A stretch of DNA of 64,000 nucleotides from Burkholderia metallica (GTDB lineage: Bacteria > Pseudomonadota > Gammaproteobacteria > Burkholderiales > Burkholderiaceae). Of the stretch, positions 35,226-50,400 are shown piece by piece. Numbering within the stretch: the first letter of the stretch is position 1; each line of letters begins with the position of its first letter. Below the pieces are notes generated by a model. That model was not told where the DNA came from and ran no database searches. It was given only the letters and a program-made list of their open reading frames with translations. Location: NCBI RefSeq assembly GCF_902832845.1, contig NZ_CADFDB010000015.1, positions 62,001 through 126,000 on the forward strand, read 5' to 3'. The position numbers were made by a program, and so were the translations under genes.

Positions 35226-35241
35226 GTATCCCATAGGATAC
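35226..35241. promoter_or_regulatory. Operator palindrome of the toxin-antitoxin pair
   Basis: GTATCC-CATA-GGATAC, 11 bases upstream of the toxin start and next to a TATATAG stretch that could be the -10 region. Likely bound by the antitoxin. Confidence 0.55.
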
Positions 35242-35318
35242 AAAAGTTCAAGGTGCATTCTGGCTACCGGCCGGACGGCCGGCGACGCGATCAGTGCGCG
35301 TCGAAGCGGGCGCGGTTT

Positions 35319-35462: not shown

Positions 35463-35519
35463 GTCAAATCTCCTTCGTGAAGTCCCGCTATAACGGACGC
35501 GGGTTGCGTCGATGACGCG

Positions 35520-35741
35520 TTATTGCGAAAACGCGCCGTCGAACACGGCGCGTTGCGTGTCGGACAGGTGCGTCGCGTCGATCTGTGTAGCGCCGTTCAC
35601 GATCATCAGCGCGTAGGGTTCGGCAAGAATCCGCGCTTCGCGACACAGGATCGGATCGCCTTCGACGCTCGGTTTGCGGGCGCGCCAAATGTTGATCGCG
35701 CGCTGGATCTGCTCGATATGCAAAACAGTGGTGATGTTCAT
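35520..35741 (-). CDS. DUF3717 protein
   Basis: 73 aa: VLHIEQIQRAINIWRARKPS, then LCREARILAEPYALMI, is the DUF3717 pattern common in Burkholderia and relatives. Role unknown. GGAG lies eight bases before the ATG at 35741; longer in-frame starts lack this. Confidence 0.8.
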   Translation of the reverse strand: MNITTVLHIEQIQRAINIWRARKPSVEGDPILCREARILAEPYALMIVNGATQIDATHLSDTQRAVFDGAFSQ

Positions 35742-35785
35742 CGCTTTCGCTCCGTGACGTGCGCCGTGTTCGCGACGCACGCAGG

Positions 35786-36265
35786 TTAGTCGATGCATTC
35801 GTCGAAGTGCCAGCGCGATTCCATTTCCTTGGCGGCACCGATTGCCTCCTGAAGTGTCGCGCGCGGATGGCCGGCGTTCGGCTCGCAATCGCCGCCCCGA
35901 TGAGAGACTTCGAGGGCAGGGACATAGCCGTCCCGGGTAAGGCTTACGCTCGGGCGCGTTTCGTTCAACCCGTCCATGTCGTTGAGCCATTCCCCGAACC
36001 AAACGACTCGACCGCGTTCCTCGGCTTCGAAACCGTCATCCCAATGCGGAATCAGACTGGGCTCGCCCGCCAGCAAGAGCGACATGTCGGCCCCTTCGAG
36101 GCATGCACGTGCTCCGCTCGCGCGGGCGCAGATTTCAGCATCCCAGAGGTATTGCTCGGCCTTATCTTCGTTGCCGGCAGTTGCAGCGATGCGAAACAGC
36201 GTAAGTTGCGCGCGCGCTTCGAGGGCAAAATCGAAACTGTCGACGGGAGTGCGATCAAATTTCAC
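35786..36265 (-). CDS. Hypothetical 159-aa protein
   Basis: Acidic cytoplasmic protein with an N-terminal helical part (residues 5-60) resembling a short repeat-like helical pair, and a C-terminal half rich in Trp and Gly. GTG start with GGAG six bases upstream. The ATG alternatives lie well upstream in a region without coding character. No family recognised. Confidence 0.6.
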   Translation of the reverse strand: MKFDRTPVDSFDFALEARAQLTLFRIAATAGNEDKAEQYLWDAEICARASGARACLEGADMSLLLAGEPSLIPHWDDGFEAEERGRVVWFGEWLNDMDGLNETRPSVSLTRDGYVPALEVSHRGGDCEPNAGHPRATLQEAIGAAKEMESRWHFDECID

Positions 36266-36311
36266 GGTTCGCTCCGATCGGCGCGCCAGCGTCGGCGCGC
36301 CCGCAAAATGG

Positions 36312-36578
36312 TCAATGGAAGATGCCGAGTGCTTCACGGATGACGCGTTGAGCGCTCGCAGCGCCGTAGCGCTCGCCCCGTGCGTACGCCTTTTCGTAGA
36401 CCTTGATCGCGACATTGATTTGCCACGCGGTCCAGTCGATCGTGGGCAGCGAAAATGCCAGTTCGCCGTCGTCGCCATGATGTACCGCGATGGAGGGCGC
36501 AGCACTTTCGCAGCGCGCAATCGCGAAAAAACCTTCCGTGATACCTTCGATCATCAGTTCGTCAGTCTCGTAGCTCAT
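36312..36578 (-). CDS. Hypothetical 88-aa protein
   Basis: Residues 40-86 (DWTAWQINVAIKVYEKAYAR then ASAQRVIREALGI) look helical. CGGAG seven bases before the ATG at 36578. Part of a run of small minus-strand genes. Function unknown. Confidence 0.62.
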   Translation of the reverse strand: MSYETDELMIEGITEGFFAIARCESAAPSIAVHHGDDGELAFSLPTIDWTAWQINVAIKVYEKAYARGERYGAASAQRVIREALGIFH

Positions 36579-36592
36579 CGTGAATCTCCGGG

Positions 36593-36883
36593 TCATTGCC
36601 AAACCGGCGACCACGCGCCGGACGAAAGGCGAAACAGGGTGATGCGCCGAGCGCGACCGTCGATGCTCGTTTCGAGCCGCACGGCGCGCGCGTCGTCATC
36701 AGGGCGGGTCCAGCGGTACAAAACTCGAAACGGGGCATCAACCGGGCAGCCGAGCCAGTGCGCGGCGGTCACGCGCAGGCGATTTTTCGTGTGTCGAATG
36801 CCTGCCTGGCGGTGAGCCTCGGGGGGTGCGGGGGGAACGCCCGCGCGTGTGTGCGTGATTCGGTCGGGGGTGGTTGTGCTCAC
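36593..36883 (-). CDS. Hypothetical 96-aa protein with the AGVPPAPPEAHR N-terminal segment
   Basis: GTG start with AAAGGA upstream. Residues 14-25 are AGVPPAPPEAHR, encoded by 35 bases identical to a stretch near the start of parB. The rest (TAAHWLGCPVDAPFRVLYRW) is a small basic domain of unknown role. The leader upstream is hairpin copy 1. Ends 15 bases before the next gene's start. Confidence 0.6.
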   Translation of the reverse strand: MSTTTPDRITHTRAGVPPAPPEAHRQAGIRHTKNRLRVTAAHWLGCPVDAPFRVLYRWTRPDDDARAVRLETSIDGRARRITLFRLSSGAWSPVWQ

Positions 36884-36908
36884 GATTTCGTCCTTTTGTG
36901 TCGGGTTG

Positions 36909-37117
36909 TGGATCTGCCATTGGGAGCCGCCTCGACGCGGGTTTAGCGCGGGCAGGCACGGGTGCAAGGGCGCGCCCGGAGGCCGCATGCGGAGCGCAGG
37001 CGTAGCCGAGCACCGAACGGGTGAGGACGTGGGCGGAGCGAAGCGCAGCCTTTACCCTTGCGCCCGTGCCTGCCCGCGCTATGCGTCGAAAAGGGGCGGC
37101 TCCCAATGGCAGATCCA
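36909..37117 (-). repeat. Structured GC-rich leader element, copy 1
   Basis: A long inverted repeat: 23 perfectly paired bases outside (36909-36931 with 37095-37117), TCGACGC/GCGTCGA next, and 26 pairs with one G-T inside (36945-36970 with 37055-37080). The loop holds GCACC-type hairpin CACC-GAACG-GGTG shared with copies 3 and 4. It ends 26 bases before a start codon, so the hairpin would lie in the mRNA leader of the 96-aa gene. Confidence 0.6.
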
Positions 37118-37315
37118 CGCGCTTAACCCGGCGCAAAAGGATGGAGCGCAACCACGCGGTTTCCCCGGCCGGATCGCGCACACGGCGCGGGGCAGCCGGT
37201 CCCGCGCCCCCTCGGCCGGCGTAGCCGGCCGCTAGACCTGCTGTCCGCCCGCGAGTAGCGGGCACGTACTCCACGAGCAAGCGAAGCGCGCAGCGCCGGC
37301 ACGGCGCGCAGACGT

Positions 37316-37410
37316 CAGGGATTGAAGCCCGTAGGGGCGAGACTCGCGCAGCGAGGCTCGACGCGCAGCGCGAAAGCCCGGCCCGGAGCGAAGCGGAGGG
37401 AGACGCCCGA
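37316..37410. repeat. 95-base GC-rich element, copy A
   Basis: From CAGGGATTGAAGCCCG through GCGAGACTCGCGCAGCGAGG to GGAGCGAAGCGGAGGGAG. A nearly identical copy lies at 46538-46635. Many short complementary arms (AGCCCG/CGGGCT-like) suggest a folded RNA. The rest of the gap between the 96-aa gene and parB shows no coding frame. Confidence 0.55.
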
Positions 37411-37620
37411 GCAGCAAGTCAGGGAAGTGCCGCCAGCGCATGCGCCACAGCGACGGGCGCGCATGCGCAGCATCGGAAAGGTGATCCTTTACGGGAGCGG
37501 CAGAGAATCGGAAAGTGAGAACTTTCGGGAGTAGATCATCATGCTGCGGACGGCCCGCCGAAGAACACTGACCGGCACACCGCACCAGCGGGCGCGGCGC
37601 ACCCGCTGGCGTCGATTAGG

Positions 37621-39750
37621 TCAATCACGCGGCGGCATGCCTTCACCTTCCGCTACGACCGTGCCGTCGCTCACGTCGTCGGCCGACGCAACCAACGCAG
37701 GCTCGTCGGCCTCCGCTTCCTCGGCGCTTTCGTCGGCATGCGACGCCTTCGCCGGAACGTCCCACAGCTTCATCCGCACGACTTCGGTCTTCGCGAAATG
37801 CTCTGGCAACCAACCGCGCCCCGCGATCAGCCGTTCGGCCTCGGTCGCCGCGTCCCCCTTCTTGAGCTTCGCCACGCGCATCGCATCGGAACGTGACGCG
37901 GCCGCGCTCACGACGTCCACGATCCGATCTTTCGAAACGTGGTCGAAGTAGCCCGCCTTCGTCGGTTGCCACGCATCCGCGAGATTCAGCCCGAGCGCCG
38001 GGATCAGTGCGTTGATCGCGTGCGGCCGCTCATCCGGGCGCACGCTGTCCACGCTCGCCGCGACGTACTGCGCGAGGATCAGCAGCAGGCGCTCGTCGGT
38101 CTGCTCGATCAGCCAGCGCAGCAGCGCGTCACTGTCATTCGGGATGACGCCTCCCCAAACCCGGCGTTGCTCTCGCCGCATCGTGAACGCAAGGTCGTCG
38201 TCCAGTTCCGGCGCATGCTTCGTCAGGTTGTGGGAGTGGTCACGGAACGTCACGTCCAGCGCGCTCCCTTCGGTACTGTGGCCGTACTCGCCCGCCAGCA
38301 GCCGGTGCACGAGCGCGGCGAGCGCGACGTGCGGCTGCTGCTCGAGGGCGGCGGCAACGGCCGCCGTGCGATGCGCGTTCAGGCGCAGCGTCAGCCGTTC
38401 GGAGTGCGGCCCCTTCGCGGGCTTCACAGCCGACGCGCCGACGCGCGCGGGCTGACCATCTGACGAGTCGTCGTCATCGTCGTCACCATTCTCGCCACTT
38501 TCGGTCGTCGCGGCTGCAACCGGCTCACGCGCAACGAGTCCGCGCTCGATCACGGGCTCGCCGTTCGCATCGAGCGAGAGAAGCGCGCCAGCCTGCGCCA
38601 TGTCGTCGGGATGGTAGACGAGCAGTGACTCTTCGATTTCGTCGCGACGCACGGTCAGCGCTTCTTCTTCCGCCTCGACGCGCTCGGCGACATCGTCGTC
38701 TCTCTCGTCGGCATCCCAAAATTGAGCAAGTTCGGCCAGCCGCTGATCGATCGCCGCCAGTTCTTTCGCAACCTCGTCTGTCGGTTCCGTTCGACGCGGC
38801 AGCACCGGGCGAAATTGCGACCGCGCGGCATGGTCCCGTTCCGGCATGGCTTTCACCCATGCCCAGCCTTCGGCCAGCACCGACGCGCCGAGTGCTTCCA
38901 GTTGCTCGGTCGCGAGGCGCAGCATCAGCGCATGATCGCGATACCACGCATCCTCGGCTGCGGAGAACAGGTCGCGTCGCACTGCACCGCCAGCCGCTTC
39001 GAACGCCTCGACGCCAACGAATTTCGCGACGCGGTTGCTCACGAACGACTGTTCGTCGCGCACGAAGCGGCGGCGGATCGCGTGCGCGTCGCGGTTGTAC
39101 GGCTCGGCGTCGAACCACGCGGCCTCTTGCTCGTCGTGACTGTCCGACAGCGCAACCGCCTGCATTTGGTCGAGCTTGATCTCTCCGGTGCGGAACAGGT
39201 CGACCAGCTTCGGAGACACTCGCGCGAGCTTGAGGCGGCGCTGCACGGTTTTCGGGTGCACGCCGTACAGGTCGGCGATTTCCTCGATCGACCGGCCAGC
39301 TTCAACCTGAATCCGGTATGCCTCGCACGCGTCGGCGGGGTGCATCGGCTCGCGCATTTCGTTCTCGGTCGCGGACAGCAGCACGGCATCCTCGACCGGC
39401 ACCACTTTGCAGCGCACCGGGTGGTCGGCGGGGATGTAGTCGTGTTCGAGCAGGTAGACGAGCGCGAGGCGACGGCGGCCGCCAGCAGCGACGCCAAACG
39501 TCTGCGCCTTCCTCGCCCCGACCTTCATCGGGTGCACGATCAGGTTTTGAAGCAGGCCGACTTTCCAGATATTGAGCGCGAGTTCCTTGATGCCGGTCGG
39601 GGGCACGCGCCGCACGTTGTAGGGGGACGCGACCAGCCGTTTAAGCGGAATGTCGCGCAGGTCGTCTGCCGTTCGGTGAGCCTCGGGGGGTGCGGGGGGA
39701 ACGCCCGCGTCGTGGGCGAGGGCCGGGATCTCGGTGGTCACTGCGTTCAT
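37621..39750 (-). CDS. parB: Large ParB/Spo0J-family partition protein
   Basis: 709 aa, about twice chromosomal ParB. The N-terminal ParB domain (residues 30-130, IPLKRLVASPYNVRR and GVAAGGRRRLALVYLL) leads to a helix-turn-helix (IEEIADLYGVHPKTVQRRLK). Residues 400-500 are very acidic with a run of seven aspartates, and the C-terminal third is an extra helical domain. AAAGGAGG five bases before the ATG at 39750 fixes the start. No parA is adjacent. It may act as a general plasmid regulator rather than only in partition. Confidence 0.9.
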   Translation of the reverse strand: MNAVTTEIPALAHDAGVPPAPPEAHRTADDLRDIPLKRLVASPYNVRRVPPTGIKELALNIWKVGLLQNLIVHPMKVGARKAQTFGVAAGGRRRLALVYLLEHDYIPADHPVRCKVVPVEDAVLLSATENEMREPMHPADACEAYRIQVEAGRSIEEIADLYGVHPKTVQRRLKLARVSPKLVDLFRTGEIKLDQMQAVALSDSHDEQEAAWFDAEPYNRDAHAIRRRFVRDEQSFVSNRVAKFVGVEAFEAAGGAVRRDLFSAAEDAWYRDHALMLRLATEQLEALGASVLAEGWAWVKAMPERDHAARSQFRPVLPRRTEPTDEVAKELAAIDQRLAELAQFWDADERDDDVAERVEAEEEALTVRRDEIEESLLVYHPDDMAQAGALLSLDANGEPVIERGLVAREPVAAATTESGENGDDDDDDSSDGQPARVGASAVKPAKGPHSERLTLRLNAHRTAAVAAALEQQPHVALAALVHRLLAGEYGHSTEGSALDVTFRDHSHNLTKHAPELDDDLAFTMRREQRRVWGGVIPNDSDALLRWLIEQTDERLLLILAQYVAASVDSVRPDERPHAINALIPALGLNLADAWQPTKAGYFDHVSKDRIVDVVSAAASRSDAMRVAKLKKGDAATEAERLIAGRGWLPEHFAKTEVVRMKLWDVPAKASHADESAEEAEADEPALVASADDVSDGTVVAEGEGMPPRD

Positions 39751-39779
39751 ACAAGCCTCCTTTACGTCGGGGTGGAAAA

Positions 39780-39964
39780 AGCTGCCATTCGGAGCCGCCT
39801 CGACGCATGGGGAGTGCGGACGCGCAGGCACTGCAAGGGCGCGAGCAAGGCCGCAGCGCCTCGGCCGCCAGGCCGGGCGACCGGGCGCCGCGCGCGGCAA
39901 CGCGAACCCTTGCGGTGACGGCGGGCCGCACTATGCGTCGGGATGAGGCGGCCCGATGGCAGCT
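39780..39964 (-). repeat. Structured GC-rich leader element, copy 2 (before parB)
   Basis: Outer arms AGCTGCCAT/ATGGCAGCT, then GCCGCCTCGACGCAT paired with ATGCGTCG-(bulge)-AGGCGGC, AGTGCGG/CCGCACT, and the core GCAAGGG/CCCTTGC (39833 and 39907). Same outline and partly the same outer-arm sequence as copy 1. It ends 30 bases before the parB start. Confidence 0.6.
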
Positions 39965-40451
39965 GATTCGCCGACGGTGGAAGACTGGAACGCGGGGACG
40001 GCTGCCGAAGCCCGGACGTCGCCGGCGCCGGGCCGCACGCGCGGCCCGAGCGCGAACTCCGCGCGGCTCGCCGCGCGGCTGGCGGGGCGGCCAGCGCCGG
40101 GGCCGGACGCCAGCGGCGGCCGAGCCCCAGGAGCGGACAGCCCGTATCTCTGGCGCGCGGGTGCGTGCGGCTTGCGTGCCTGGCGAAGCCGGGCGCGCAA
40201 GGTGCCGCGCGCCGGCTGGATAATCGGAACGGCGCGGATCCGCCGCGGCCAGCTGGGGCGAGCGGTCCCCCGCCCGCGCCGGCCGCTCGATGCGGACGGG
40301 GTGGGCCGCCCCGTATCAGTGGAACATTTCGCGGTACGGAAACGGCCTTCCGCGTTCCAGTCGCCGGCCGGGCCCGCGGGTTCAGGCCGGAGGTGGAACA
40401 TGATCGATTGGAGATCGCCGCCGGCACCAGGCGCGCGCCGGCGGCCGCACG
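39965..40451. other. GC-rich gap upstream of the parB leader
   Basis: No supported gene; long frames on both strands are low-complexity Arg/Ala/Pro products of the base composition. The parB promoter may be here. Confidence 0.45.
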
Positions 40452-40640
40452 TCAGGTCGCAGCATTACCGCGGCCGTGAACAACACCGGCGTCGAATGCC
40501 GCCGCGAGCGCGTCGCGGATGCACCAGACCGCGCAATCGTGAAAGTCCAGCCGGTCGCTGTGGCGCGTTTCGAGTGTGTCGATGCGCAGATGCATGCGTG
40601 CGATCGCGAAAAGCAACATTTCGATTTCGTTTTTCGTCAT
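40452..40640 (-). CDS. 62-aa hypothetical protein
   Basis: MTKNEIEMLLFAIARMHLRI begins a helical protein with HDCAVWCIRDALAAAF near the end. GAGG five bases upstream of the ATG. Lies 58 bases after another very small gene of the same orientation. Function unknown. Confidence 0.55.
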   Translation of the reverse strand: MTKNEIEMLLFAIARMHLRIDTLETRHSDRLDFHDCAVWCIRDALAAAFDAGVVHGRGNAAT

Positions 40641-40698
40641 GGGAGCCTCGCAAACGGCCGGCTGCCGGCAACGCCGGCGCCGGCGTCGGCGGATGAAT

Positions 40699-40866
40699 TT
40701 ATCGCCGGGCGCACTGGCCGGCCTGGAACGCTTCCAGCATCGCGTAACGCAACGACGCCGGCAGCACTTCAATTTCCGTGTTGGATTCCCACACGTCCGA
40801 GATCTCCGGGCCGAAGGCGTTTGCTGCGATCGCGGCCAAAATCGCGTCAATCAAATAACGGGGCAT
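40699..40866 (-). CDS. 55-aa hypothetical protein
   Basis: MPRYLIDAILAAIAANAFGP to GQCARR; acidic middle, mostly helical. AGGAG six bases upstream of the ATG at 40866 is the strongest argument for a gene. Function unknown. Confidence 0.55.
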   Translation of the reverse strand: MPRYLIDAILAAIAANAFGPEISDVWESNTEIEVLPASLRYAMLEAFQAGQCARR

Positions 40867-40915
40867 GCTGTTCTCCTGGTGTGCCGGCCGCGGCGAGCGG
40901 CCGGCGCTCGTGTGG

Positions 40916-41422
40916 TCAAGAAAGCTGCACTGCGCCGCAGTTTTCGGCTAGGCAGAATGCGAAATACCAGTTGCGGTACAGCTCGGCGAACAGGTGATCA
41001 ACGTCAGCGTCGATCGCTCCGATGAACCGGCTGAAATCGTCGGCCAGCTTCGCGGAAGTCCGCGACCCGATCGTTCCCGACGTGATCGAGAAATCGATCA
41101 GTTCCTTAAACGGGCCGTCCTTTGCTGCGATAGCGCCGTTCGTATGGCAGATTCGCGTGGCGCCGATCGAGATCGCCGGGTAATCGGCGAGCTCGGCCAG
41201 GCGCTCGCGGAAAATGTCGTGCATAACGTAGGTGCCGGCGCTGAATTCGAAGGAATTGCGATACCGGTAGATACGCGCCATGTCCAGGTCGCTGGCGCGG
41301 TGTGGGAACCGCGCCGCGGCGTCGAGGCGAACACAAAACACGTCCACGGGGTCGCCGTTCTCGTTCGTGCGGGGATGGTCGAGCTGCTCGAGACCGGAAT
41401 AGGCTGAAACGATCAGTCGCAT
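40916..41422 (-). CDS. Hypothetical 168-aa protein
   Basis: Soluble protein with mixed charge; patterns include SAYSGLEQLDHPRTNENGDP and RICHTNGAIAAKDGPF. AGAGGA seven bases before the ATG. It follows the DNA methyltransferase by 23 bases and is probably co-transcribed with it. No family recognised. Confidence 0.65.
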   Translation of the reverse strand: MRLIVSAYSGLEQLDHPRTNENGDPVDVFCVRLDAAARFPHRASDLDMARIYRYRNSFEFSAGTYVMHDIFRERLAELADYPAISIGATRICHTNGAIAAKDGPFKELIDFSITSGTIGSRTSAKLADDFSRFIGAIDADVDHLFAELYRNWYFAFCLAENCGAVQLS

Positions 41423-41445
41423 GGTGAAAGTCCTCTGTTCGGGTC

Positions 41446-42099
41446 TTAGGCGGCGGCCAAAGCGGCGCCGGCAACAGGCGCCGTCAGGCGCGCCTTGGCG
41501 GCCGCAAAGTAGGTCGCGTCCAGTTCGATGCCGATATACCGGCGCCCGAGCTCGCGGGCGGCAACGCACGTCGAGCCGGAGCCGGCGAACGGATCCAGTA
41601 CGACGTCGCCGGGCTGCGTAAAAGCGGAAATGAGTGTGCGCAGCGCGGCGACCGGCTTTTCGGTCGGATGGTGGCGGTTGCCGCTGTACGGAAACGGCAT
41701 GACGTCGGCGATCGGCGCGGCCGGCGCCGCGGGCCGCCCCTTGGCGAGCAGGTAGGCCGATTCGTGCTGGTACTTCACCAGGCCGGCCTTGGACGCGTAG
41801 GACTTCGTGAAGACGAAGTGGCCGGCCACGCGAAAGCCGGCCGCCTTCCAGGCATCGAAAAACAGGTCGACCTTGTTCCAGCCGTAGAACGAAATGCACA
41901 CGGCGTCGCGCTTCAACACACGGAACATTTCGGCGAACGCCGGCGCCAGCCAGTCGCCGTTTACGTCGTTCGCGATCGAGCGGCCGCTCCGGTCGCGGAA
42001 ATTGACGAGGTAGGGCGGGTCCGTGACGATACAGTCGACGGATTCAGGGGCGAGTTTGGGCATGGCGACCAGGCAGTCGCCGTTGTACAAATAGCTCAC
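41446..42099 (-). CDS. DNA methyltransferase, adenine-N6 or cytosine-N4 (beta class)
   Basis: Modifies DNA with AdoMet. Catalytic motif DPPY (VDCIVTDPPYLVNF) lies near residue 30 and the AdoMet motif DPFAGSGST near residue 180, the order of beta-class enzymes, with HHPTEKPVAALR between them. The GTG start at 42099 has GGAG six bases upstream; an ATG four codons earlier (42111) has no ribosome site. No partner restriction enzyme, so probably an orphan enzyme shielding the element from host restriction. Confidence 0.9.
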   Translation of the reverse strand: MSYLYNGDCLVAMPKLAPESVDCIVTDPPYLVNFRDRSGRSIANDVNGDWLAPAFAEMFRVLKRDAVCISFYGWNKVDLFFDAWKAAGFRVAGHFVFTKSYASKAGLVKYQHESAYLLAKGRPAAPAAPIADVMPFPYSGNRHHPTEKPVAALRTLISAFTQPGDVVLDPFAGSGSTCVAARELGRRYIGIELDATYFAAAKARLTAPVAGAALAAA

Positions 42100-42129
42100 G
42101 GTCAGCTCCATAGAGTTGAGATAAGGGCA

Positions 42130-42425
42130 GCCGGAGCGATGCGGCTCGCAAACCGTGCTACCCGGAGCTGGCGAGCGCCCGCGGGAGAATGGCGGGCAAG
42201 GGGACCGTGGAATACCGGAGTGCGCGAAGCGCGCGAGGATATGCCGCGAAAGCCCCTTGCAGGAGCAGGGCGCCGTGCGACACTCGTCGCGCGCGGCGCA
42301 ATGGTCCGGCCGCCAGGCTACGGCGGGCGAACGTGGGCTCCGGGTTCAAAGGTCGACTGCGGAAGGAATGCGAGGCGCTTGGCTAGCGCGTAGGCGCCGG
42401 GCGCGGGAGTGGTGTTGCGTCACGG
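42130..42425 (-). repeat. Structured GC-rich leader element, copy 5 (before the DNA methyltransferase)
   Basis: Core stem GCAAGGGG (42196) with CCCCTTGC (42253) and inner GCGCGAAGCGCGC, matching the core of the other copies, in an otherwise non-coding stretch just upstream of the methyltransferase start. Outer arms differ from copies 1-4. The remaining bases to 42563 show no gene. Confidence 0.45.
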
Positions 42426-42563
42426 ACATGAGCGCGACGGCGGACGCAGATCGCCGAGCGCGATCGCGATTTCCGTGTCGCGGCCGCGAAGCGGCCGCCG
42501 CGCAAAATTGGGATCGTGGAAATGGGAGAACCGAGTTGGTTGATCACCAATCAGCGTCAGCTA

Positions 42564-44363
42564 CTACGCCTCGAGCTCGAACGCCAAGGAAGTCTGTGCA
42601 CCATCCGTCGTGGCCTTATGCGCCCAAGCCCGCCGCGCTTCCTCGGGAAGTTCGCTAAAGCGCACACCGTAGGCAAGGAGCTGCTCGACGTCGTGCCCGA
42701 GGTTCAGTCCGAGCCGATCCTTGAAGTCGGTGCGACGGGCCACTTCATCGTGCTTCAGTTGCTGCTTATGGGAGAGGGTGAGCGCGCCGTAGTTCAGGTA
42801 CCACCGATAGCCGGTCGTGATCCCGCCGGGATGAAAGCCGCGGTCGTGCATAGCCGCGAGGCGATCCGCTTCGAACTCCAGGATCATCTCGGCCGACTCG
42901 AGGTCGACGTCGAAGCGATCGCCGGTGCGGACGCGCCAAGTGCTCTTTCCATCACCCAGGTCCAACACTGTCGGCGCGCACGGCGAGCGCTCCGTCAAAG
43001 CCTCCATCAGCGGATCTCGAAACCCGGTCCACTGATCCGCCGTATCGTCCCACTCGGTGCCGACCTTCAGAAAAAGCGGCTCGGGCAACGGTGCCGGCGC
43101 GGCCGGTGCGATTTCCGGTACGGGATTACTCACGCCACGCTCGCAGATGTCCCGGTAGTCGGCCCAGATCGCGAAGGGGGCCGCGAGTCCCTGCAGCGAC
43201 TGCATTGCGTCAACGGCAATCATCATCGGCAGGGGCAAGGTCTGGAATTTCGGTTGCGTTCCAGCGCGTCGAGCGCGGATCCTCTCGTCACGATCGATTG
43301 TCAGCATATACCGGACGAGCTCCCGTACGGTAGCCGCACCAAACGTATCCGGTTCGAGGCAGATGTACCCTGCACGGATTGTGCGACCGACCCAATTTCG
43401 ACGCGACCAGTCGTAACGGATCGCGCGGATGAAGCGGTTCAGCTGCTGCAGGCCGCGCGCGTAGGCGTACCGATCTCCATCGAAGCGGATCATCTCGGCG
43501 AGCGAACGATCATCGGCTTGCTGGCAGGTCCAGCAGCCGGTGCGCGCATCGCAGTTTCCGCGTCGCACACGCTTGCCGGCGGACGCCTCCTCGAACGTGA
43601 GATCGGACACGATCGCGCAGCTGCTGTTGCCGGCATGCGCGTAGATCCGCTTCGTCTCTTCGAAGTCCGTGTAGGTCAGGCGCAGCCCGGACGAGACTTC
43701 GCCGATAAACTCCCAGACATCTTCAGTCGACCAGTCGGCGATGGGGCAGAGGGTGAGTTCGCCGTCGCTGTTGCGGACCGGCGTATCGGCGCGATCGCCA
43801 CGGGCGGTCATCTTCGCCTTGCGGCGCTCACTTTCGTTGAAGCGGGTGCCGAGCAGGACCACGGGTTCTGCATAGCCGGCCTTCCGTGCCTCGCGATATA
43901 ACTGATTGCGACCGACGCGGCTGGGCTCGATCTTCAACGAGACTGAGCAGTCCGAATTCGTGCCGGCGTAGCTCGGCAGGGCCCGGCCCGTGAGGACCGA
44001 CAGTTGCCAGGACGTCGCGAGTGACGGTGCAACAACCAGCACGCGTACCTCGAATCCGTGCGACCGGCCATAGGCCTCCATCTTCCCCAGCTCCCGACGC
44101 GCGTGCTCAACCATCTCGGGCGACTCGACCAGGGTGTCGGCCGTAATCACGCAGACAAGCGGCTGGCCACCGCCGGCAACATGCTGGCGTGCTGCGTCCA
44201 GCGCGAGGCTCGTTACGACTCCACTATCCTTGCCCGCGCTGAACTGGCAAATCACCATCCGATTCGCGGAAAACAGCGCCCCGAGCGCCTCGAGCGCGCG
44301 TTCGACGCGCTGATCGACGGTGGGGCGCAGTTCCGCCTGCAGGAACATTTCGACCGTTTCCAT
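42564..44363 (-). CDS. DndC-like PAPS-reductase-family protein
   Basis: 599 aa. The N-type PP-loop FSAGKDSGVVTSLAL is near residue 42; cysteine sites CSVSL, SSCAIVSD and GNCDARTGCWTC recall the iron-sulfur cluster region of DndC (which has GCWxC). DndC joins sulfur to DNA in phosphorothioation, but dndB, D and E are absent. Residues from about 400 form an extra domain. Mobile elements often carry such stand-alone genes of unproven function. It follows the LPD29 gene by 18 bases. Confidence 0.8.
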   Translation of the reverse strand: METVEMFLQAELRPTVDQRVERALEALGALFSANRMVICQFSAGKDSGVVTSLALDAARQHVAGGGQPLVCVITADTLVESPEMVEHARRELGKMEAYGRSHGFEVRVLVVAPSLATSWQLSVLTGRALPSYAGTNSDCSVSLKIEPSRVGRNQLYREARKAGYAEPVVLLGTRFNESERRKAKMTARGDRADTPVRNSDGELTLCPIADWSTEDVWEFIGEVSSGLRLTYTDFEETKRIYAHAGNSSCAIVSDLTFEEASAGKRVRRGNCDARTGCWTCQQADDRSLAEMIRFDGDRYAYARGLQQLNRFIRAIRYDWSRRNWVGRTIRAGYICLEPDTFGAATVRELVRYMLTIDRDERIRARRAGTQPKFQTLPLPMMIAVDAMQSLQGLAAPFAIWADYRDICERGVSNPVPEIAPAAPAPLPEPLFLKVGTEWDDTADQWTGFRDPLMEALTERSPCAPTVLDLGDGKSTWRVRTGDRFDVDLESAEMILEFEADRLAAMHDRGFHPGGITTGYRWYLNYGALTLSHKQQLKHDEVARRTDFKDRLGLNLGHDVEQLLAYGVRFSELPEEARRAWAHKATTDGAQTSLAFELEA

Positions 44364-44381
44364 AGCGCTCGGCTTCCGTGG

Positions 44382-45047
44382 TCAGTGGGTGTCGCGCCGC
44401 ACAAACAGCCGTGCGCCCGTGACCGACCGGGGAAACCCGTGCGCGTCTGTGGTTTCCGCAAGCATCGCGTCGACGTCCATCTGTACGTTGGCTCCCGATC
44501 GACGGCTGCCGGCCCGGTGCACGCCGACGATCTCGAGCAGCTGCAGCCGGCCCGCGCGATAATCCTCAACCGTCATAGCCGCCCGGACGTCGGGTGCCAA
44601 AAAGTCTGCGTAGCGCACCGCGAGGCGCTCGATTGCATGTGCAATTGCGTGATCGCTGAACTGTCTCGACAGGATGATGCGGTCCGCAGCCAAGTGAACC
44701 GTCAACCGGCCGGCCGACGTCAGCATGAAGTGCTCGACCCGCTTGACCTTCCCCCCGTCGACCACGCGTGTGGCTTGCAGCGGCAACACGAGCCGAGCCA
44801 CCTGCAGGTCACGCGGGCCGTCGGTCCAATCGACGGTCAGGTGCGAGCCGATCGCTTTCTTCGTGACGGCGATCGCAAACGACGTCGTGGGAAATGCCTC
44901 CCCAAGAATCGTCTGTACCAGCTGAGCCGTTTCGATGAGGTTGAGCGTATCGGCGATGACCTTCGGCGGCGTCGCGTCGCCAAAGCTGGTGCGGGCACGC
45001 ACCGATTCGGTAGAGCGGGAGAGGTTGTTTCCGGTGGCAAGCATCAT
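44382..45047 (-). CDS. LPD29-domain protein
   Basis: 221 aa. AQLVQTILGEAFPTTSFAI and SHLTVDWTDGPRDLQVA match the large-polyvalent-protein-associated domain LPD29 found in mobile-element proteins. The C-terminal half is a second, unrecognised domain. GAGG six bases before the double ATG. Same operon as the DndC-like and DUF932 genes. Confidence 0.7.
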   Translation of the reverse strand: MMLATGNNLSRSTESVRARTSFGDATPPKVIADTLNLIETAQLVQTILGEAFPTTSFAIAVTKKAIGSHLTVDWTDGPRDLQVARLVLPLQATRVVDGGKVKRVEHFMLTSAGRLTVHLAADRIILSRQFSDHAIAHAIERLAVRYADFLAPDVRAAMTVEDYRAGRLQLLEIVGVHRAGSRRSGANVQMDVDAMLAETTDAHGFPRSVTGARLFVRRDTH

Positions 45048-45119
45048 GATCGACCTCGATAGAAATGGAACACGACAACGTTCGGAGAGGCGCCGACGGA
45101 AATCGCCGGCGCGTGGGGC

Positions 45120-45947
45120 TTAGCTCTTACGGGTGCGCAGCGCGTCGGCGAGAACCCAAAGCGCACGGTTCAACTTGACGTCCTGGTCGATGCCGGTGAC
45201 CGCCCGCGTGCGAGTGCGGCGGCCAGTCGCGGTCCGGCCGGGTTGCCCACCTCGAATCAAGGATTCCTGCACGCGGTTGAAGGTCGTCCACAAGTCGTTA
45301 CCGGCATCCGCGGTACGGCGCGGACGGAGTACCTGTTCTTCCGTGATCGGCGCCGGCGCAATCGTGGTGTCGTAGCGGTAGGCGAGGGCGGCTCGGGCAA
45401 AAGCGTGCTGCTCGTGCTCATCGAGCTGCACTTCAGTCATCCCTTCCTTGACCTCGCGGATCAAGTCGAAGCCGTCGAGTACGTCGTAAGCGCCCGCGAC
45501 GACGTCGTCGACTACGTTGCCCTTGTGCGGGACGCGCACGTCGTGCGTCGTGTCGCCGAGCACGAGGCCGTTTTCGCAGACGAAGCGAAAGTACCCACCC
45601 AGCATTTGATAGCTGCTCGAACCATCGTGAGAATTGAGGAGAATGATTTCCGGTGAGTCGGCTTGCGTGACCTGCGTGGCATGACGCAGGCGGAGCATGT
45701 GCTTCGCGTGCTCGCGCTTGCCGCTGTCGCGCACGCGCGTTTGGCAGACCATGAAGGGCTGAAACCCTTCCTCACGCAGCTTCGTCAGGATCTCGATAGT
45801 CGGGATGTACGTGTAACGCTCCGACCGGGAGTCGTGCTTGTCGGCCGCGAAGATCGATGGTGCGACCTGCCGGATTTGATCGTCATCCAGCGGCGTGTTC
45901 GAACGAAGGACTGGGGCAGTGCGGCTGAACGTCGTTGCGAGTTTCAT
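45120..45947 (-). CDS. DUF932 protein
   Basis: 275 aa with DUF932 signatures: YTYIPTIEILTKLREEGFQP, HMLRLRH, LLNSHDGSSSYQMLGGYFRF and CENGLVLG. Found on plasmids, phages and ICEs; biochemical role unknown. GGAG six bases before the ATG. Confidence 0.92.
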   Translation of the reverse strand: MKLATTFSRTAPVLRSNTPLDDDQIRQVAPSIFAADKHDSRSERYTYIPTIEILTKLREEGFQPFMVCQTRVRDSGKREHAKHMLRLRHATQVTQADSPEIILLNSHDGSSSYQMLGGYFRFVCENGLVLGDTTHDVRVPHKGNVVDDVVAGAYDVLDGFDLIREVKEGMTEVQLDEHEQHAFARAALAYRYDTTIAPAPITEEQVLRPRRTADAGNDLWTTFNRVQESLIRGGQPGRTATGRRTRTRAVTGIDQDVKLNRALWVLADALRTRKS

Positions 45948-46165
45948 GGCTTTCTCCGTTGAAAATTCAGATGCGAGGCAGATGGAAATCGACGGTGTCC
46001 GTCAACACCAGACGACGTGGCGGTAGTCGACCGTGCGTCGGTAGTAGTTGCGTCCATCCCATGGCGTGTACGTGTATTCCATGTACGCACACTGCAGGAC
46101 TACTATCCAATGGTGCAGTCGGTTCGCTTCCATCGTGACCTCCGACATCTGTTGGGTTGCATTTC

Positions 46166-46500
46166 AGGCCGACCGGGACCCAAGATTCCGAGTCCCCACG
46201 TAGGGGTTGTGCCGGTGCTGCCTGGACTTCGGCAGAACTGCTGCCGCCAGTCCCCTGAGTTCGTCGTCCCGCGACTGAAGGAGCCTGCCGGCGGGCGCGT
46301 TCAAGGGCGGTCGCAAAGCCGCATGCGGAGCGCAGCCCGAGGGGCGAGCACCGAACGGGTGCCGCGGCCGGCGAAGCGCACCCTTGAATGCGAACGACGG
46401 TGGGCTACGGTCGCGTTTGGGACGGCGAGCGCAGGGGACTGGCGGTATGCGGAAAGTTGAGACAGCACCGGCTCGCCGCGCGGCGAGCGCCCAATCGGGG
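46166..46500 (-). repeat. Structured GC-rich element, copy 3
   Basis: Closely similar over about 300 bases to copy 4 at 50055. Core stem TTCAAGGG (46300) with CCCTTGAA (46381), enclosing GCCGCATGCGG, GCCC-GAG-GGGC and GCACC-GAACG-GGTGC hairpins. Upstream of the DUF932 gene by 219 bases. No open frame here is conserved between the copies. Confidence 0.6.
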
Positions 46501-46537
46501 CGGAGCCCCGGCTGTATAGGGGGTGTCGCGTTTGCGT

Positions 46538-46635
46538 CAGGGATTGAAGCCCGAAGGGGGCGAGACTCGCGCAGCGAGGCTCGACGCGCAGCGCGAAAGC
46601 CCGGCCCGTAGCGAAGCGAAGGGAGGCGCCCAGGG
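46538..46635. repeat. 95-base GC-rich element, copy B
   Basis: Second copy of the element at 37316, differing at only a few positions. It follows copy 3 directly; the pairing of this module with a structured element is the same as near copy 1. Confidence 0.55.
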
Positions 46636-46795
46636 TCGGCCGCAAATCCCACACGAACGTGTGGAACGGAGGAGCACAGCGGCCGAAGGCATGTGGATAC
46701 GCGAAGCAGGGCGGGCTCATCAGCGGCAAGCGCCCCTCTCGCGGTCTCAAGGCCGCGTGACTGGAATAGCACATCCTTCGCCCGGCTAACGCCCG

Positions 46796-47119
46796 TCACG
46801 ACCCAACATGATCGAACCCGACTGCCATCGTGTGTCGCACCAGCGGCGTGGGCCCGGCTGCCACTTCGTGACAGCCGAGCTCGCGCGGGCCGGCAAGGCG
46901 TGCGCGATACCGCGCACCAGGCACCCGGATGTGCAGGTTTTGCTTCACACACTCGAACGCCTGGTCGGCCGTGCGGGCGCGAGCGTAATAGGTATGTCGA
47001 TACGCCGGGCGCCGTTCGCGCCCGGCCGCGATGTCGACCGCCCAGACCTTGACTTCCTTGTTCGACCACCATGCGACCGCTTCGACTTCGTCTCGGGACA
47101 GAATGCAGTGCTGTTTCAT
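46796..47119 (-). CDS. Hypothetical 107-aa protein
   Basis: Begins MKQHCILSRDEVEAVAWWSN; later AYRHTYYARARTADQAFECV. Basic, cytoplasmic. GAGG seven bases before the ATG at 47119. Directly downstream of the cytosine methyltransferase on the same strand. No family recognised. Confidence 0.65.
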   Translation of the reverse strand: MKQHCILSRDEVEAVAWWSNKEVKVWAVDIAAGRERRPAYRHTYYARARTADQAFECVKQNLHIRVPGARYRARLAGPRELGCHEVAAGPTPLVRHTMAVGFDHVGS

Positions 47120-47176
47120 CTCGAATCCTCGGAGAATGCGGCCCGCCGCGGCGGGCCGCTCGTAGGTCACAGGCCG

Positions 47177-49153
47177 CTACAGACTGCCGGGCAGGGTCAG
47201 CGCGATCGCAACCGGACGCACCCAAACCGGCGTCGACGACAGCTGGAACGTCTCGCCGGATTCGGCGAGCAGCAGTGTGGTGCCCATCACCTCGGCGATC
47301 GCTTCCGCGGCATCAGGCGGCACCGCGTTGCCGATACGCTCGCGCCATGCCTGATCGCTGTCGCCATCCAGCTTGAAGTGGCCAGCGAACACATTGCCGG
47401 TCGCCGCAATCTGCTTGCGGTGCCAGTCGCGTTCTTCGGCATCGATCCAGGTCTGCTCGGGATCAACTAGGGACTGCAGTACCGCCAGCTCGAGGGTGGT
47501 GAACGGGCGGTGCCACGTGCCATCAAGTGCGCGGATCACCGCGACGGTCTTCTCGGTCGCCGCTGGCATACGAGGATCGGCGACGGACCAGCGGCCGTTG
47601 TCGTGGCCGGCGGCGGCCGATACGGCTCCGCTGTGCTGATCCCAGCCGACCACGCCGTAGTGGCCGCCGGTGAGGTAGGCGTCGCCCCGCTCGCGGCGCA
47701 TGCCCGGTCGTGGGTCAGCTACGGCGAACGCCCCTTGTCCGCTGTCGCTGCGCGCGATGACCGTGCCGGCCGGCTCGTCGAAGGCTGTCACCTTGTACTT
47801 GCCGGCGCCTTCGAAGCCGGTGCTCGAGCGCGGGTCGGCAACCGCATACGCGCCCTGATCGTCGCCACCGATAACAGTGCCGGCGTGGCCGGTCCATTCG
47901 GTCACCTTGTACTTGCTGAACAGGGGGCCGGCCGGTGGCCGAGGATCTTGAACGCACTGGCCGGTACCGTGTGCGCTGGTGACCGCGCCGGCGGCTTCTC
48001 TCCAGGGCACGATTCGGAATTCGTTGTTGTGCTTCGCCGGGCCCTGGTGGCGCGGGTCCGCGACGCTGAAAGTGCCTTGCCCGGGCGACTTCTGACCGGT
48101 GATCGTGCCGGCGTGGTCGTTCCAGTCGAGCACGCCGTACTGCTGGTATTGCGCGGCGTCGGCCGGCCCGCGCGGGTCGGCGACCGAAAAGCTCCCGTTG
48201 CCCGGACGGCTCGCGCCGGCCACGACGCCGCACGGTTCTTCCCAGCGGTTCACGCCGAGCACGCCGTTGTGCATGTCCGGCACGATCAAGTAGTCGCGCA
48301 GCTGACCGTTCTCGACCGCGAGCTTGTTCAGGCTGCGCCAGTCGCTGCCGGCTTCGACGAAGGCGAGGCGCACCCATGTTTTCCACTGCAGCGAGGGCAC
48401 GCGATGCATCGGGCCGGCGGCCTCGACGTCGCCCGGCAGCGGCATGCGGCCGAGCAACGTACCGACGCCCTGAAGGCGATTCTGGGGCGGCTCGTACAGG
48501 AACGCCGGTACCTTTTCGGTATGCCGCGCGACGAGCAGGAAGCGCTTCCGGCTCTGCGCCATCCCGCGCTTCGCGATGCGGCCGCAGTCGTGACTCGTCT
48601 CGTTCTTCGCATAGCCGAAGTGCTGCAGAATCTGCCCGATCTGATCCAGCAAGTGGCGGCCGCGCGTTGCGAGCCGGGGGACGTTTTCGAACACGATGAG
48701 TTCGACCGGGTCGTCCTTCCACGCTTCACACATCAGCCAAACGCAGCGCAGCGTGAGTTCGTTGAGCGCCTGGTATTTCGGCGTGCGGCTGAGCGTTTCC
48801 GACAACAGGCCGGACGCGCCCTTGCACGGCGACGAAATGAACACGCAGTGCGGATGCTGGTAGCCGGCCGCGCGGCGCACGTCTTCGGGCGTGGCCTCGC
48901 GCCAGCCGGCAGGCGGCTCGACGCCGTGGAACGCGGTGTACTGCTCGCGCGTGAAGAGGTCCATGAGCGTGCACGGGACGCCGGCAATCGTACGAAAGTC
49001 GCGACATGCAGCGGGATCGTTGTCGATGCCGCCGATACAGCGCCAATTCGCGATCAGCTCCCCCACTCGAGACTGGGCTTTTTGGAAGCCCTTGGCTCCA
49101 CCGCCCAAGCCACTGCACATCGTCAATACGTTGTAGGTTCGGGTCATATCCAT
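47177..49153 (-). CDS. 5-methylcytosine DNA methyltransferase with six internal repeats
   Basis: 658 aa (typical enzymes 350-450). Motif I CSGLGGGAKGF, catalytic motif IV SSPCKGAS, motif VI FENVPRL, motif VIII QSRKRFLLVARH, motif IX FTTLELAVLQSLVDPE and motif X GNAVPPDAAEAIAEVM are all present, so it should be active. Residues about 280-530 hold six repeats of roughly 35-40 residues built on YxVxxWxxxAGTV...FAVADPR. GGAG seven bases before the ATG at 49153. Probably an orphan enzyme protecting transferred DNA. Confidence 0.92.
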   Translation of the reverse strand: MDMTRTYNVLTMCSGLGGGAKGFQKAQSRVGELIANWRCIGGIDNDPAACRDFRTIAGVPCTLMDLFTREQYTAFHGVEPPAGWREATPEDVRRAAGYQHPHCVFISSPCKGASGLLSETLSRTPKYQALNELTLRCVWLMCEAWKDDPVELIVFENVPRLATRGRHLLDQIGQILQHFGYAKNETSHDCGRIAKRGMAQSRKRFLLVARHTEKVPAFLYEPPQNRLQGVGTLLGRMPLPGDVEAAGPMHRVPSLQWKTWVRLAFVEAGSDWRSLNKLAVENGQLRDYLIVPDMHNGVLGVNRWEEPCGVVAGASRPGNGSFSVADPRGPADAAQYQQYGVLDWNDHAGTITGQKSPGQGTFSVADPRHQGPAKHNNEFRIVPWREAAGAVTSAHGTGQCVQDPRPPAGPLFSKYKVTEWTGHAGTVIGGDDQGAYAVADPRSSTGFEGAGKYKVTAFDEPAGTVIARSDSGQGAFAVADPRPGMRRERGDAYLTGGHYGVVGWDQHSGAVSAAAGHDNGRWSVADPRMPAATEKTVAVIRALDGTWHRPFTTLELAVLQSLVDPEQTWIDAEERDWHRKQIAATGNVFAGHFKLDGDSDQAWRERIGNAVPPDAAEAIAEVMGTTLLLAESGETFQLSSTPVWVRPVAIALTLPGSL

Positions 49154-49200
49154 GGTTTTTCTCCGGATAGCGTGGCCCGCTCGCGCGGGCCGAGCGTGGG

Positions 49201-50001
49201 TTAGCAAGCAGCGAGAAGTTGATCGATCTGCGGGCGCAGCCAAGCCGCCGTGCTGATCGCAGCCGGGGTCAGCTTGCGAACGTATGCCGACGTACCATTG
49301 GGAGATCTGGTGGGGCTGAACAGGAACGCGTTGCGGCGCAGGAGCTCGCGGACGTTCTTCGCCGGCTTCGCGTCGAAGATGAATGCGGCGCGGTTGTCTT
49401 CGATATCCTCGCGGTACACATAGCCTTCGCCCTGATGCTCGACCGAGGGGCACGCGGCGATTTTCTCGAGCTGGGCGATCCGATCACGAATGCGGCGGAT
49501 GTTCGCGCTGCTATTCGTGATCTCGTACGACGCGAAGCCAACACGACCGGCGAAATCCGGCGTAAAGAGCTTGTCGATGGCGTCGGGCTGGTATCCCATG
49601 CGTGCAAGACCGGCGCGGTCATCGCGACGCACCAGTTGGTTCGTGCGCTTCATGCGATCGTGCCGATCCTCCAGTGCGACCAGCTGCGCACGCAGCTTTG
49701 CCACCGCGTCCGGGTCATCGCTGGAGACCCCGCCTTTGCCCACTGCAGCCGCCCGACGTTCCAGCTCATCAGCGCGGTCGTCGAGCGCGAACGACTTCCC
49801 GAACGTCTTGTGGATGCGGTCGCGGTAGTTCCTGTCTCGCGATTCGGAGTAGTGGCCGGCCAGAACGGGCTGGCCTGCCGGAATGACCGAGGCCATCTCT
49901 TTGGCAGCGGTATAGGCGATCCGGGACGCGGAGCGTGCCTTGTTGGCGCGCGCCTCGAGACGCGTGCGACTGTCGTGCTGGCGTTGCTGGAACTTGTTCA
50001 C
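49201..50001 (-). CDS. DUF3560 protein
   Basis: 266 aa with the family start ASVIPAGQPVLAGHYSESRDRNYRDRI followed in order by coiled-coil helices and a C-terminal domain (AAFIFDAKPAKNVRELLRRN). Family common on ICEs and plasmids, function unknown. GTG start with AGGAG seven bases upstream. Confidence 0.9.
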   Translation of the reverse strand: MNKFQQRQHDSRTRLEARANKARSASRIAYTAAKEMASVIPAGQPVLAGHYSESRDRNYRDRIHKTFGKSFALDDRADELERRAAAVGKGGVSSDDPDAVAKLRAQLVALEDRHDRMKRTNQLVRRDDRAGLARMGYQPDAIDKLFTPDFAGRVGFASYEITNSSANIRRIRDRIAQLEKIAACPSVEHQGEGYVYREDIEDNRAAFIFDAKPAKNVRELLRRNAFLFSPTRSPNGTSAYVRKLTPAAISTAAWLRPQIDQLLAAC

Positions 50002-50054
50002 GAGCTTTCTCCTATAAGGGTTGACGCGGCTGGAACGGGTTGGCTGTCAGGCTG

Positions 50055-50400
50055 ACCGGGCCCCAAGATTCCCTGTCCCCGCGTAGGGGTTCGGGCTTTG
50101 GTGCCTGGACGTCGGCAGAACTGCTGCCGCCAGTCCCCTGAGTTCGCCGTCCCGCGACAAAAGGAGCCCGAAGCCGGGCACGTTCAAGGACGGACGCAAA
50201 GCCGCACGCGGAGCGCAGCCCGAAGGGCGAGCACCGAACGGGTGCCGCGGCCGGCGAAGCGGATCCTTGAAAGGGAACGGGGAAGGGCTACGGTCGCGTT
50301 TGGGACGACGAGCTCAGGGGGCTGGAGGTATGCGGATACGCGAGGCAGCACGAGCTCGCCGCGCGGCGAGCGCCCCTTCTCGCGGCCCCAAGGCCGCGAG
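50055..50400 (-). repeat. Structured GC-rich element, copy 4
   Basis: Partner of copy 3. Core stem TTCAAGGA (50183) with TCCTTGAA (50264): compared with copy 3 the terminal G-C pair is an A-T pair, a compensatory change. Ends 54 bases before the DUF3560 start. Contains the GCACC-GAACG-GGTGC hairpin and GCGGCCCCAAGGCCGC near its far end. Confidence 0.6.

Follow-up and report, generated by a model that had tools for sequence, protein, structure and literature searches.

Promoters that act on single-stranded DNA have been described in conjugative plasmids: Frpo of the F plasmid, and ssi2 and ssi3 of ColIb-P9 (PMC7736820, PMC11541004, PMC8708921). They are inverted repeats of the leading region, they stand before establishment genes that are templated by the transferred strand, and their −35 and −10 boxes lie in the folded strand. 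Here, we describe five hairpins of similar layout in a 64,000-nucleotide stretch of Burkholderia metallica DNA (contig NZ_CADFDB010000015.1, positions 62,001 to 126,000), referred to below as the window. The window is carried by a 157-kb contig that encodes an F-type conjugation system with a relaxase of the TrwC class. We consider it very probable that each hairpin is a promoter active only while the plasmid is single-stranded, in the manner of Frpo and ssi. Their anatomy, the spacing of their promoter-like boxes, their strand-specific folding, their position and direction relative to a predicted origin of transfer (oriT) and one exchange of apices are established at the sequence level. The hairpins probably work like Frpo-type promoters, yet they are not close in sequence to the F Frpo regions tested.

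A first-pass annotation of the window had reported five intergenic hairpins upstream of minus-strand genes for a 96-aa protein, a ParB-like protein, an N6/N4 DNA methylase, a DUF932 protein and a DUF3560 protein, and all five were found. They generally stand directly ahead of the named genes, except that an open reading frame (ORF) of 43-48 aa is interposed before DUF932. The main hairpins of copies 4 and 5 begin at about 46244 and 50127; the starts first proposed, 46166 and 50055, include a smaller adjoining structure. Three forms of apex, Types I, II and III, were distinguished. The hairpins and their boxes are as follows.

36908..37118, plus strand: copy 1, Type II hairpin, before the 96-aa gene (36593-36883, minus strand); plus-strand boxes −35-like TTGCGC (37058-37063), 16 nucleotides, −10-like TATGCG (37080-37085).
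39780..39963, plus strand: copy 2, hairpin with a divergent apex, before the ParB-like gene (37621-39750, minus strand); boxes TTGCGG (39910-39915), 16 nucleotides, TATGCG (39932-39937).
42160..42345, plus strand: copy 3, Type I hairpin, before the DNA methylase gene; boxes TTGCAG (42257-42262), 16 nucleotides, weak −10-like GACACT (42279-42284).
46244..46445, plus strand: copy 4, Type II hairpin, before the short ORF and the DUF932 gene (45120-45947, minus strand); boxes TTGAAT (46384-46389), 16 nucleotides, TACGGT (46406-46411).
50127..50328, plus strand: copy 5, Type II hairpin, before the DUF3560 gene (49201-50001, minus strand); boxes TTGAAA (50267-50272), 16 nucleotides, TACGGT (50289-50294).

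The CAAGG...CCTTG stem that had been noted in all five copies was located in each of them, with cores at 36965-37060, 39834-39912, 42194-42259, 46302-46386 and 50185-50269. When the plus strand was folded as DNA and compared with dinucleotide shuffles, z values of −12.7, −8.0, −4.9, −6.4 and −3.1 were obtained for copies 1 to 5; one shuffle in 200 folded as well as copy 5, and none did for copies 1-4. As had been observed, copies 1 and 2 end close to start codons, about 24 and 30 nucleotides ahead. Copies 4 and 5 are 87% identical across 300 nucleotides, which points to a single duplication. A compensatory change had been assigned to copies 3 and 4: the change, from G-C to A-T, is real and occurs in 3 of 26 aligned sequences, but the pair concerned is copies 4 and 5. 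Similarly, the CACC-GAACG-GGTG hairpin is present in three copies, which are copies 1, 4 and 5 rather than 1, 3 and 4. In the conserved Type II core, two-sided changes affect 3 of the 21 predicted pairs, the remainder being mostly invariant.

On the transferred strand, the 3′ arm read outward from the apex gives CCTTGnnn, a spacer and usually TAnnnn. The spacing was measured on the window and 11 annotated plasmid stretches, giving 36 hairpins with 22 distinct spacers. A paired-arm scan (threshold 44) supplied 33 of the hairpins and found none in locus L205 or in R388; copy 3 of the window and two R388 copies were added by motif. TA occurred exactly 16 nucleotides past TTGnnn in 17 of the 22 distinct spacers and at 15 nucleotides in two more (the F element and R388), while at any other of 50 offsets it was found in two spacers at most. 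On the opposite arm, no single offset had TA in more than 5 of the 36 hairpins. All 17 hexamers agree with TATAAT at three or more of the six positions (TACGGT, TACTGT, TACGAT, TATGCG and others). Block-shuffling the same 12 stretches 36 times produced no hairpin. Boxes at promoter spacing in the folded strand, as in Frpo and ssi, are found in window copies 1, 2, 4 and 5, and weakly in copy 3. The arms of copies 1 and 2 differ exactly at the −10 box, which places this box within an internal loop. Among homologues, the −35 box is mostly paired and the −10 region or its partner is less paired.

The boxes were also searched for in 105 non-redundant Type I elements, obtained from 157 by dereplication at 75%; rows lying less than 90 or less than 120 nucleotides from a contig end were excluded. 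Hand-written sigma-70 matrices for −35 and −10 were applied. The −35 matrix gave a single-offset peak on each arm, at +0.34 (mean −3.45, standard deviation (sd) 0.76) and +0.58 (mean −3.07, sd 0.67). The −10 matrix peaked on the 3′ arm of the transferred strand, in scanning window 24-28, at +2.44 versus −1.72 (sd 1.17), and the position of this peak was identical when the GC-rich (59) and GC-poor (46) subsets were taken separately; the coding arm lacks a peak at that place. The commonest best-matching hexamers at offsets 22-29 were TACGAT (16 elements) and TATCCT (15). In this set the implied spacing is about 13-17 nucleotides, and many members are without a clear box.

Comparison with F Frpo revealed both likeness and difference. 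By eye, the CCCCTTGC core is also present in F Frpo. However, Frpo carries A/T tracts at its apex, whereas the window-type apices are by eye GC-rich and conserved. An A+T-rich UP element upstream of the −35 box, a criterion in the search of PMC11541004 for further candidates, was not seen in these apices. When the two F Frpo regions were compared with the window by BLAST, the best E value was 5.6, short of the survey threshold of E ≤1e-6, other published queries not having been tried. Because they show no close sequence kinship to the tested F Frpo regions and have no A+T-rich apex, we do not file the hairpins as Frpo members.

Elements resembling the window hairpins occur in F and R388. A Type II-like element precedes the antirestriction gene of F (L158:6524-6663). 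Two Type II copies are present in R388, whose annotation includes a gene of the H-NS family. These three elements have the architecture of window copies 1, 4 and 5, and an CAAGGGTACGCTTCGCCGC core is common to the F element and R388 (E 2e-4). They differ in their spacing, 15 nucleotides instead of 16, and in the apex, which is longer in F. One of the R388 copies precedes a metallopeptidase gene, which we take to be ardC. The ardC gene is reported to be needed in the recipient and not in the donor (PMC7213743). EGeRS1 and EGeRS2 of pLS20 are likewise repeated control sequences ahead of establishment genes, but their authors judged a role as single-stranded DNA promoters highly unlikely, partly because the transferred strand is there the non-template strand (PMC8708921).

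We then placed the hairpins relative to the transfer functions of the contig, of which the main features are listed here.

27142..30036, minus strand: TrwC-class (MOBF) relaxase with helicase (Pfam TrwC, E 6.9e-82).
30043..32554, minus strand: TrwB/TraD coupling protein (Pfam TrwB_AAD_bind, E 7.9e-122) and NikA-like accessory protein, adjoining oriT.
33007..33069, plus strand: predicted oriT nic region, a small hairpin followed by GAGTGGTGTGT|GACC, from nic region alignment.
34621..50328, minus strand: leading-region genes, nearly all oriented toward oriT, from gene calls.
41446..42111, minus strand: N6/N4 DNA methylase, 99.5% identical over 206 aa to a pBCJ2315 gene.

The match of the NikA-like protein (E 4e-5) falls under its own cut-off. 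A block made of a small hairpin and GTGGTGTGTGACC, or a near-identical sequence, is common to the window and five related plasmids, and a more divergent form occurs in three further relatives. With MAFFT, the window block aligns onto the nic regions of F and R388; the input consisted of segments chosen by hand from BLAST and hairpin matches. As positive controls, the hairpin scan recovered the nic regions of F and R388, on the predicted strand both times. Alignment to F positions nic at 33039|33040, with the leading region to the right, so that the plus strand would be the transferred strand. An earlier oriT candidate at 32828-32855 was dropped because it is unique to the window, and the conserved block took its place.

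The leading-region genes encode the 96-aa protein, the ParB-like protein, the DNA methylase, a DndC-like PAPS reductase, LPD29, DUF932, a cytosine methylase and DUF3560. The hairpins sit 4-17 kb inside the leading region, ahead of establishment genes. With nic as predicted for the window, they thus share the location of Frpo and ssi, before genes templated by the transferred strand. Leading-region hairpins with most genes facing oriT also occur in R388, pOLGA2, pBMUL01, pBCJ2315 and others, and in the F leading region the genes for a DNA methylase, ParB, DUF932, SSB and PsiB share one direction. The pBCJ2315 methylase gene is presumably M.BceJIII, which would make the window methylase its likely orthologue. 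M.BceJIII is reported to act on single strands, and Frpo/ssi elements have been placed upstream of ecoGIXM, the related E. coli gene (PMC7736820). One architecture before several leading-region operons supports the earlier suggestion of a coordinated control element.

Three types of apex occur among the hairpins. Type II (copies 1, 4 and 5; CACCCGTTCGGTGCTCG..TGCGCTCCGC) is also found in Burkholderiales plasmids, R388, Salmonella, Vibrio and phage-like contigs. A first regular expression for Type II gave no match. A looser one gave 36, of which 7 were false by eye and 1 was a near-duplicate; 28 were kept, and 20 remained after dereplication at 85%. The Type II pattern matched 5 of 300 genomes of the order, the window's own genome among them. 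The third form (CAAGGCGCGCGGGGCCGTGTC...) accounts for 6 of the 8 hairpins in pOLGA2 and 4 of the 6 in pBMUL01. Type I (copy 3; TTTCGCGGCATATCC..GGTATTCCACG) was found in at least 118 stretches in GTDB contigs, many of these records being metagenome-assembled genomes (MAGs), and in 27 in IMG/VR. According to the record titles, the sources include Actinomycetota, Bacillota (Lachnospiraceae, Bacillales and others), alpha-, beta- and gammaproteobacteria, one Desulfovibrio MAG and one Bacteroidia MAG. GTDB and IMG/VR were searched with an exact pattern, so the exactness of Type I in these sets is built in. Thirteen exact copies were also obtained from twelve loci (L004-L008, L206-L212) retrieved with BLAST, which itself favours exact copies, and when all fetched loci were rescanned with a relaxed pattern, just two variants turned up, one of them in F.

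In Aeromonas and Serratia plasmids, Type I stands immediately before a DNA methyltransferase gene, as in the window. In F, it has two mismatches, lies about 110 nucleotides ahead of a DNA methylase gene and is overlapped by a small annotated ORF; a 271-bp F stretch containing it has matches in at least 5000 plasmids. A 2.6-kb RepL/MOBV plasmid, in which a single gene is annotated, also carries Type I. The unexpected point is this breadth: a near-invariant apex is common to phage contigs and to plasmids, both conjugative and small mobilizable ones, over several phyla, an extent that sets Type I apart from Frpo and ssi. The copy-1 site is a natural module swap of apices I and II. The outer stem and the TATGCG box are shared, and the apex is Type II in the window and Type I in B. 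cepacia LK29 and pBCJ2315; in the exchange the spacer sequence is replaced and the 16-nucleotide spacing is preserved.

Some small or mobilizable replicons carry two opposed elements, Type I and Type II in L006:1117-1302 and L008:10001-10169 and two Type II in L163:1473-2941; such pairs perhaps serve both strands. In the MOBP plasmids L007:3713-4136, L210:1220-1653 and L204:13742-14290, an element lies beside mobC or the relaxase gene or before the coupling-protein gene, and in L007 and L210 it is directed away from the relaxase.

Elements of Types I and II were then examined in phage-like contigs. Twenty proteins taken from 8 IMG/VR loci were scanned against PHROGs, which identified a rolling-circle Rep in L136 and L137, other replication initiators in L129, L130 and L132, a filamentous-phage Zot-like gene in L131 and L155, and tailed-phage genes in L132 and L144. 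Homologues of Rep or Zot were present in 22 of 30 IMG/VR loci (17 with Rep and 5 with Zot only). The element, of Type I or II, opposes Rep, or Zot where Rep is absent, in 22/22 of these loci, several of which are closely related and so represent fewer independent cases than 22. By Zot alone, it is opposed in 7 of 8 loci. In filamentous phages and rolling-circle replicons, an element opposed to Rep or Zot would fold in the viral or displaced strand. This orientation fits an element acting in the strand that is single-stranded; it does not fit a leader sequence for Rep or Zot.

RNA-polymerase-dependent single-strand origins are familiar from rolling-circle plasmids, from sso1 of ICEBs1 and from the complementary-strand origin of M13. 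These are folded single-stranded DNA used on the displaced or viral strand, as the hairpins of the phage-like contigs may be, but their function is replication priming, and the likeness is one of description. The hairpins could thus be mainly single-strand initiation sites (sso or ssi) that prime the complementary strand, expression being a side effect or absent. This is possible but on balance unlikely. It would suit the filamentous-phage-like and Rep-bearing contigs, where Types I and II have the orientation expected for a displaced or viral strand, as well as the element of the 2.6-kb RepL/MOBV plasmid. Priming alone, however, needs neither many leading-region copies nor their placement before genes; in pOLGA2, all eight detected hairpins are intergenic and lie 136-174 nucleotides ahead of the next coding sequence. 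Promoter boxes at a fixed spacing suit RNA polymerase, and both roles can coexist.

The first-pass annotation had offered a structured RNA leader as the other possible reading. Such a leader, acting like a riboswitch or by binding a protein, would occupy the 5′ untranslated region of each operon. The nearby start codons and some compensatory changes are in keeping with such a leader, which would call for a conserved fold of the coding strand. With DNA parameters used for both strands, the transferred strand, complementary to the mRNA, was found to be more stable than the coding strand in 98/105 Type I elements (mean −5.2 kcal/mol) and 18/20 Type II elements (−8.1), whereas random windows of the same loci were unbiased (59/105 and 9/20). 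Arms were more complementary to their own partner than to arms of other elements, 32.4 versus 16.2 for Type I, with 80/105 above the 95th percentile, and 42.4 versus 21.1 for Type II, with 9/20 above it, a weaker result because many copies are related. Raw wobble counts, taken from elements whose arm score is at least 30 (48 of Type I and 12 of Type II), favour the transferred strand (109 versus 32, and 26 versus 3), much of this bias being due to base composition; coding-strand wobble is depleted (permutation p 0.0005 and 0.056). The Rfam search called for at the outset returned no match at gathering score; each of the five weaker hits, with E values up to 10, scored far below the gathering score concerned. 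Together with the opposition to Rep or Zot in IMG/VR loci and a −10-like peak confined to the non-coding 3′ arm, these results make an RNA leader very improbable.

We give equally little weight to ordinary double-stranded promoters firing away from the downstream gene and read from the TTGnnn-N16-TAnnnn strand. The boxes are present on that strand in duplex DNA, but the complementary second arm would be left unexplained. Moreover, since leading-region genes mostly share one direction, the transcripts would be antisense to the preceding operon, which counts against such promoters. Least probable of all are parS-like or other plasmid-protein binding sites spread by duplication: the region has a ParB-like gene and copies 4 and 5 are duplicated, but the range of Type I takes in phage contigs and plasmids from several phyla, the one-gene 2.6-kb plasmid among them.

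The genes next to Type I homologues were oriented with a codon-trained caller, and 15 of the 105 elements, lying within a called gene, were excluded. In the high-GC set, the next gene within 800 nucleotides is sense in 37/41 cases. An orientation test based on the longest ORF (41 sense, 44 antisense) was discarded because 67/105 elements lay inside spurious ORFs. Pfam domains of 55 sense neighbours comprised ParB_N (4), glutaredoxin (4), N6/N4 methylase (3), ArdC (3), DUF932 (2), SSB (1), Mob_Pre (1), RepL (1) and several transposases. Four large opposite-strand neighbours from Lachnospiraceae and relatives were translated and look by eye like a single transposase family; in L013, L025, L027 and L029 of these groups, a transposase-like gene of about 485 aa has Type I at its 3′ end.

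Several observations weigh against the proposal that the hairpins are single-stranded DNA promoters. No clear −10 box is seen at 16 nucleotides in window copy 3, in Denitratisoma and pPNP1, or in the Type I copies of Aeromonas, Serratia and F. The coding arm of Type I shows a weaker −10 rise at offsets 52-57 (−0.03 versus −1.34, sd 0.53). Once composition is allowed for, the wobble excess on the transferred strand is only suggestive (permutation p 0.067 and 0.037). The sense direction also prevails among the upstream genes of the high-GC set (25/37), and in the low-GC set the downstream gene is sense in just 18/46. Among the phage-like loci, L146 has its Zot, but not its Rep, in the direction of the element, and the microvirus PQ006669 (L206:4000-4110, Microviridae) carries the exact Type I motif in the gene direction. 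Finally, PHROGs names rolling-circle replication only for L136 and L137, the loci with phrog_3584 or phrog_453 Rep being of unproven mode. The unproven replication mode of many IMG/VR loci lowers our confidence slightly.

Overall, the data fit single-stranded DNA promoters best, and we infer recognition by RNA polymerase, activity on single-stranded DNA only, priming and a role of the apex. During conjugation, the plus strand would be nicked at about 33,039 and enter the recipient 5′ end first. In the entering strand, each hairpin would form a duplex mimicking a sigma-70 promoter, its 3′ arm acting as the non-template strand (TTGnnn, 16 nucleotides, TAnnnn) and its 5′ arm as the template. RNA polymerase would start near the hairpin base and proceed onto the single strand through the establishment operon located 5′ of the hairpin. 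The −10 box, which tends to sit in an internal loop, would already be partly open. Next to the −35 box, on its upstream side and in the position of an UP element, comes the apical module (Type I, II or III), which probably recruits polymerase. Synthesis of the complementary strand would abolish the hairpin and end expression; RNA started at the hairpin may also prime that synthesis. For the Type I apex, we see an even chance that it is an RNA-polymerase landing module for single-stranded DNA working in most bacterial phyla, a common solution for conjugative and mobilizable plasmids, rolling-circle replicons and filamentous phages. It would then be interchangeable with Type II, as seen at one site, and perhaps with Type III.

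Other repeats were noted in the window. A second repeat family of about 95 nucleotides, ending in GGGCTTCAATCCCTGACG (37334-37425 and 46557-46650, minus strand), lies next to two of the hairpins.

37334..37408, minus strand: second repeat, upstream of copy 1, 96% identical to 46557-46631.
46557..46631, minus strand: second repeat, upstream of copy 4, 96% identical to the copy-1-side repeat.

This family has 14 distinct copies among the fetched loci, two of them in F, and a promoter-core pattern follows 112-335 nucleotides downstream in 13 of the 14, both F Frpo sites included. Near oriT, an inverted repeat TTTTCCACA...TGTGGGAAA (33390-33528), similar in several relatives, is perhaps an origin or a protein-binding site. 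A toxin-antitoxin pair comes next after the oriT block, and a 113-nucleotide direct repeat (83% identical) and large inverted repeats lie between the two (33668-33950). The PAPS-reductase/DndC-like protein of the leading region (42564-44363, minus strand; PADLOC DndC, E 3e-28) may have a role in DNA modification or anti-defence.

Published surveys started from known sequences. One examined leading regions with five known sequences and candidates from four islands, and its main text does not contain the word Burkholderia (PMC11541004). Another used BLAST with 18 Frpo-type sequences at 1e-6; the portion of its text consulted here reports Frpo promoters in only seven H-NS plasmids and does not name R388 (PMC12826799). 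In Frpo literature from 2023 on, no such elements appeared in titles or the opening lines of abstracts; supplements and most subscription papers fell outside this search, and a prior description is possible. Among the papers listed when the literature was searched for the letters of the motifs, the two that seemed closest by subject contain a sequencing primer and a CRISPR spacer, and the other listed papers were judged unrelated by title.

The first genes switched on in a recipient are central to plasmid establishment and to escape from host defences. If the Type I apex is a landing module of the kind outlined above, single-stranded DNA promoters would be far commoner than surveys from known Frpo sequences report, including in plasmids with H-NS genes such as R388. 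The signature described here (TTG, 16 nucleotides, a TA box and defined apices) is searchable and finds candidates missed by the two F Frpo queries. It predicts operons expressed upon entry in elements of Burkholderia, Actinobacteria and Firmicutes, and a motif conserved nearly letter for letter across phyla raises the testable question of what reads it.

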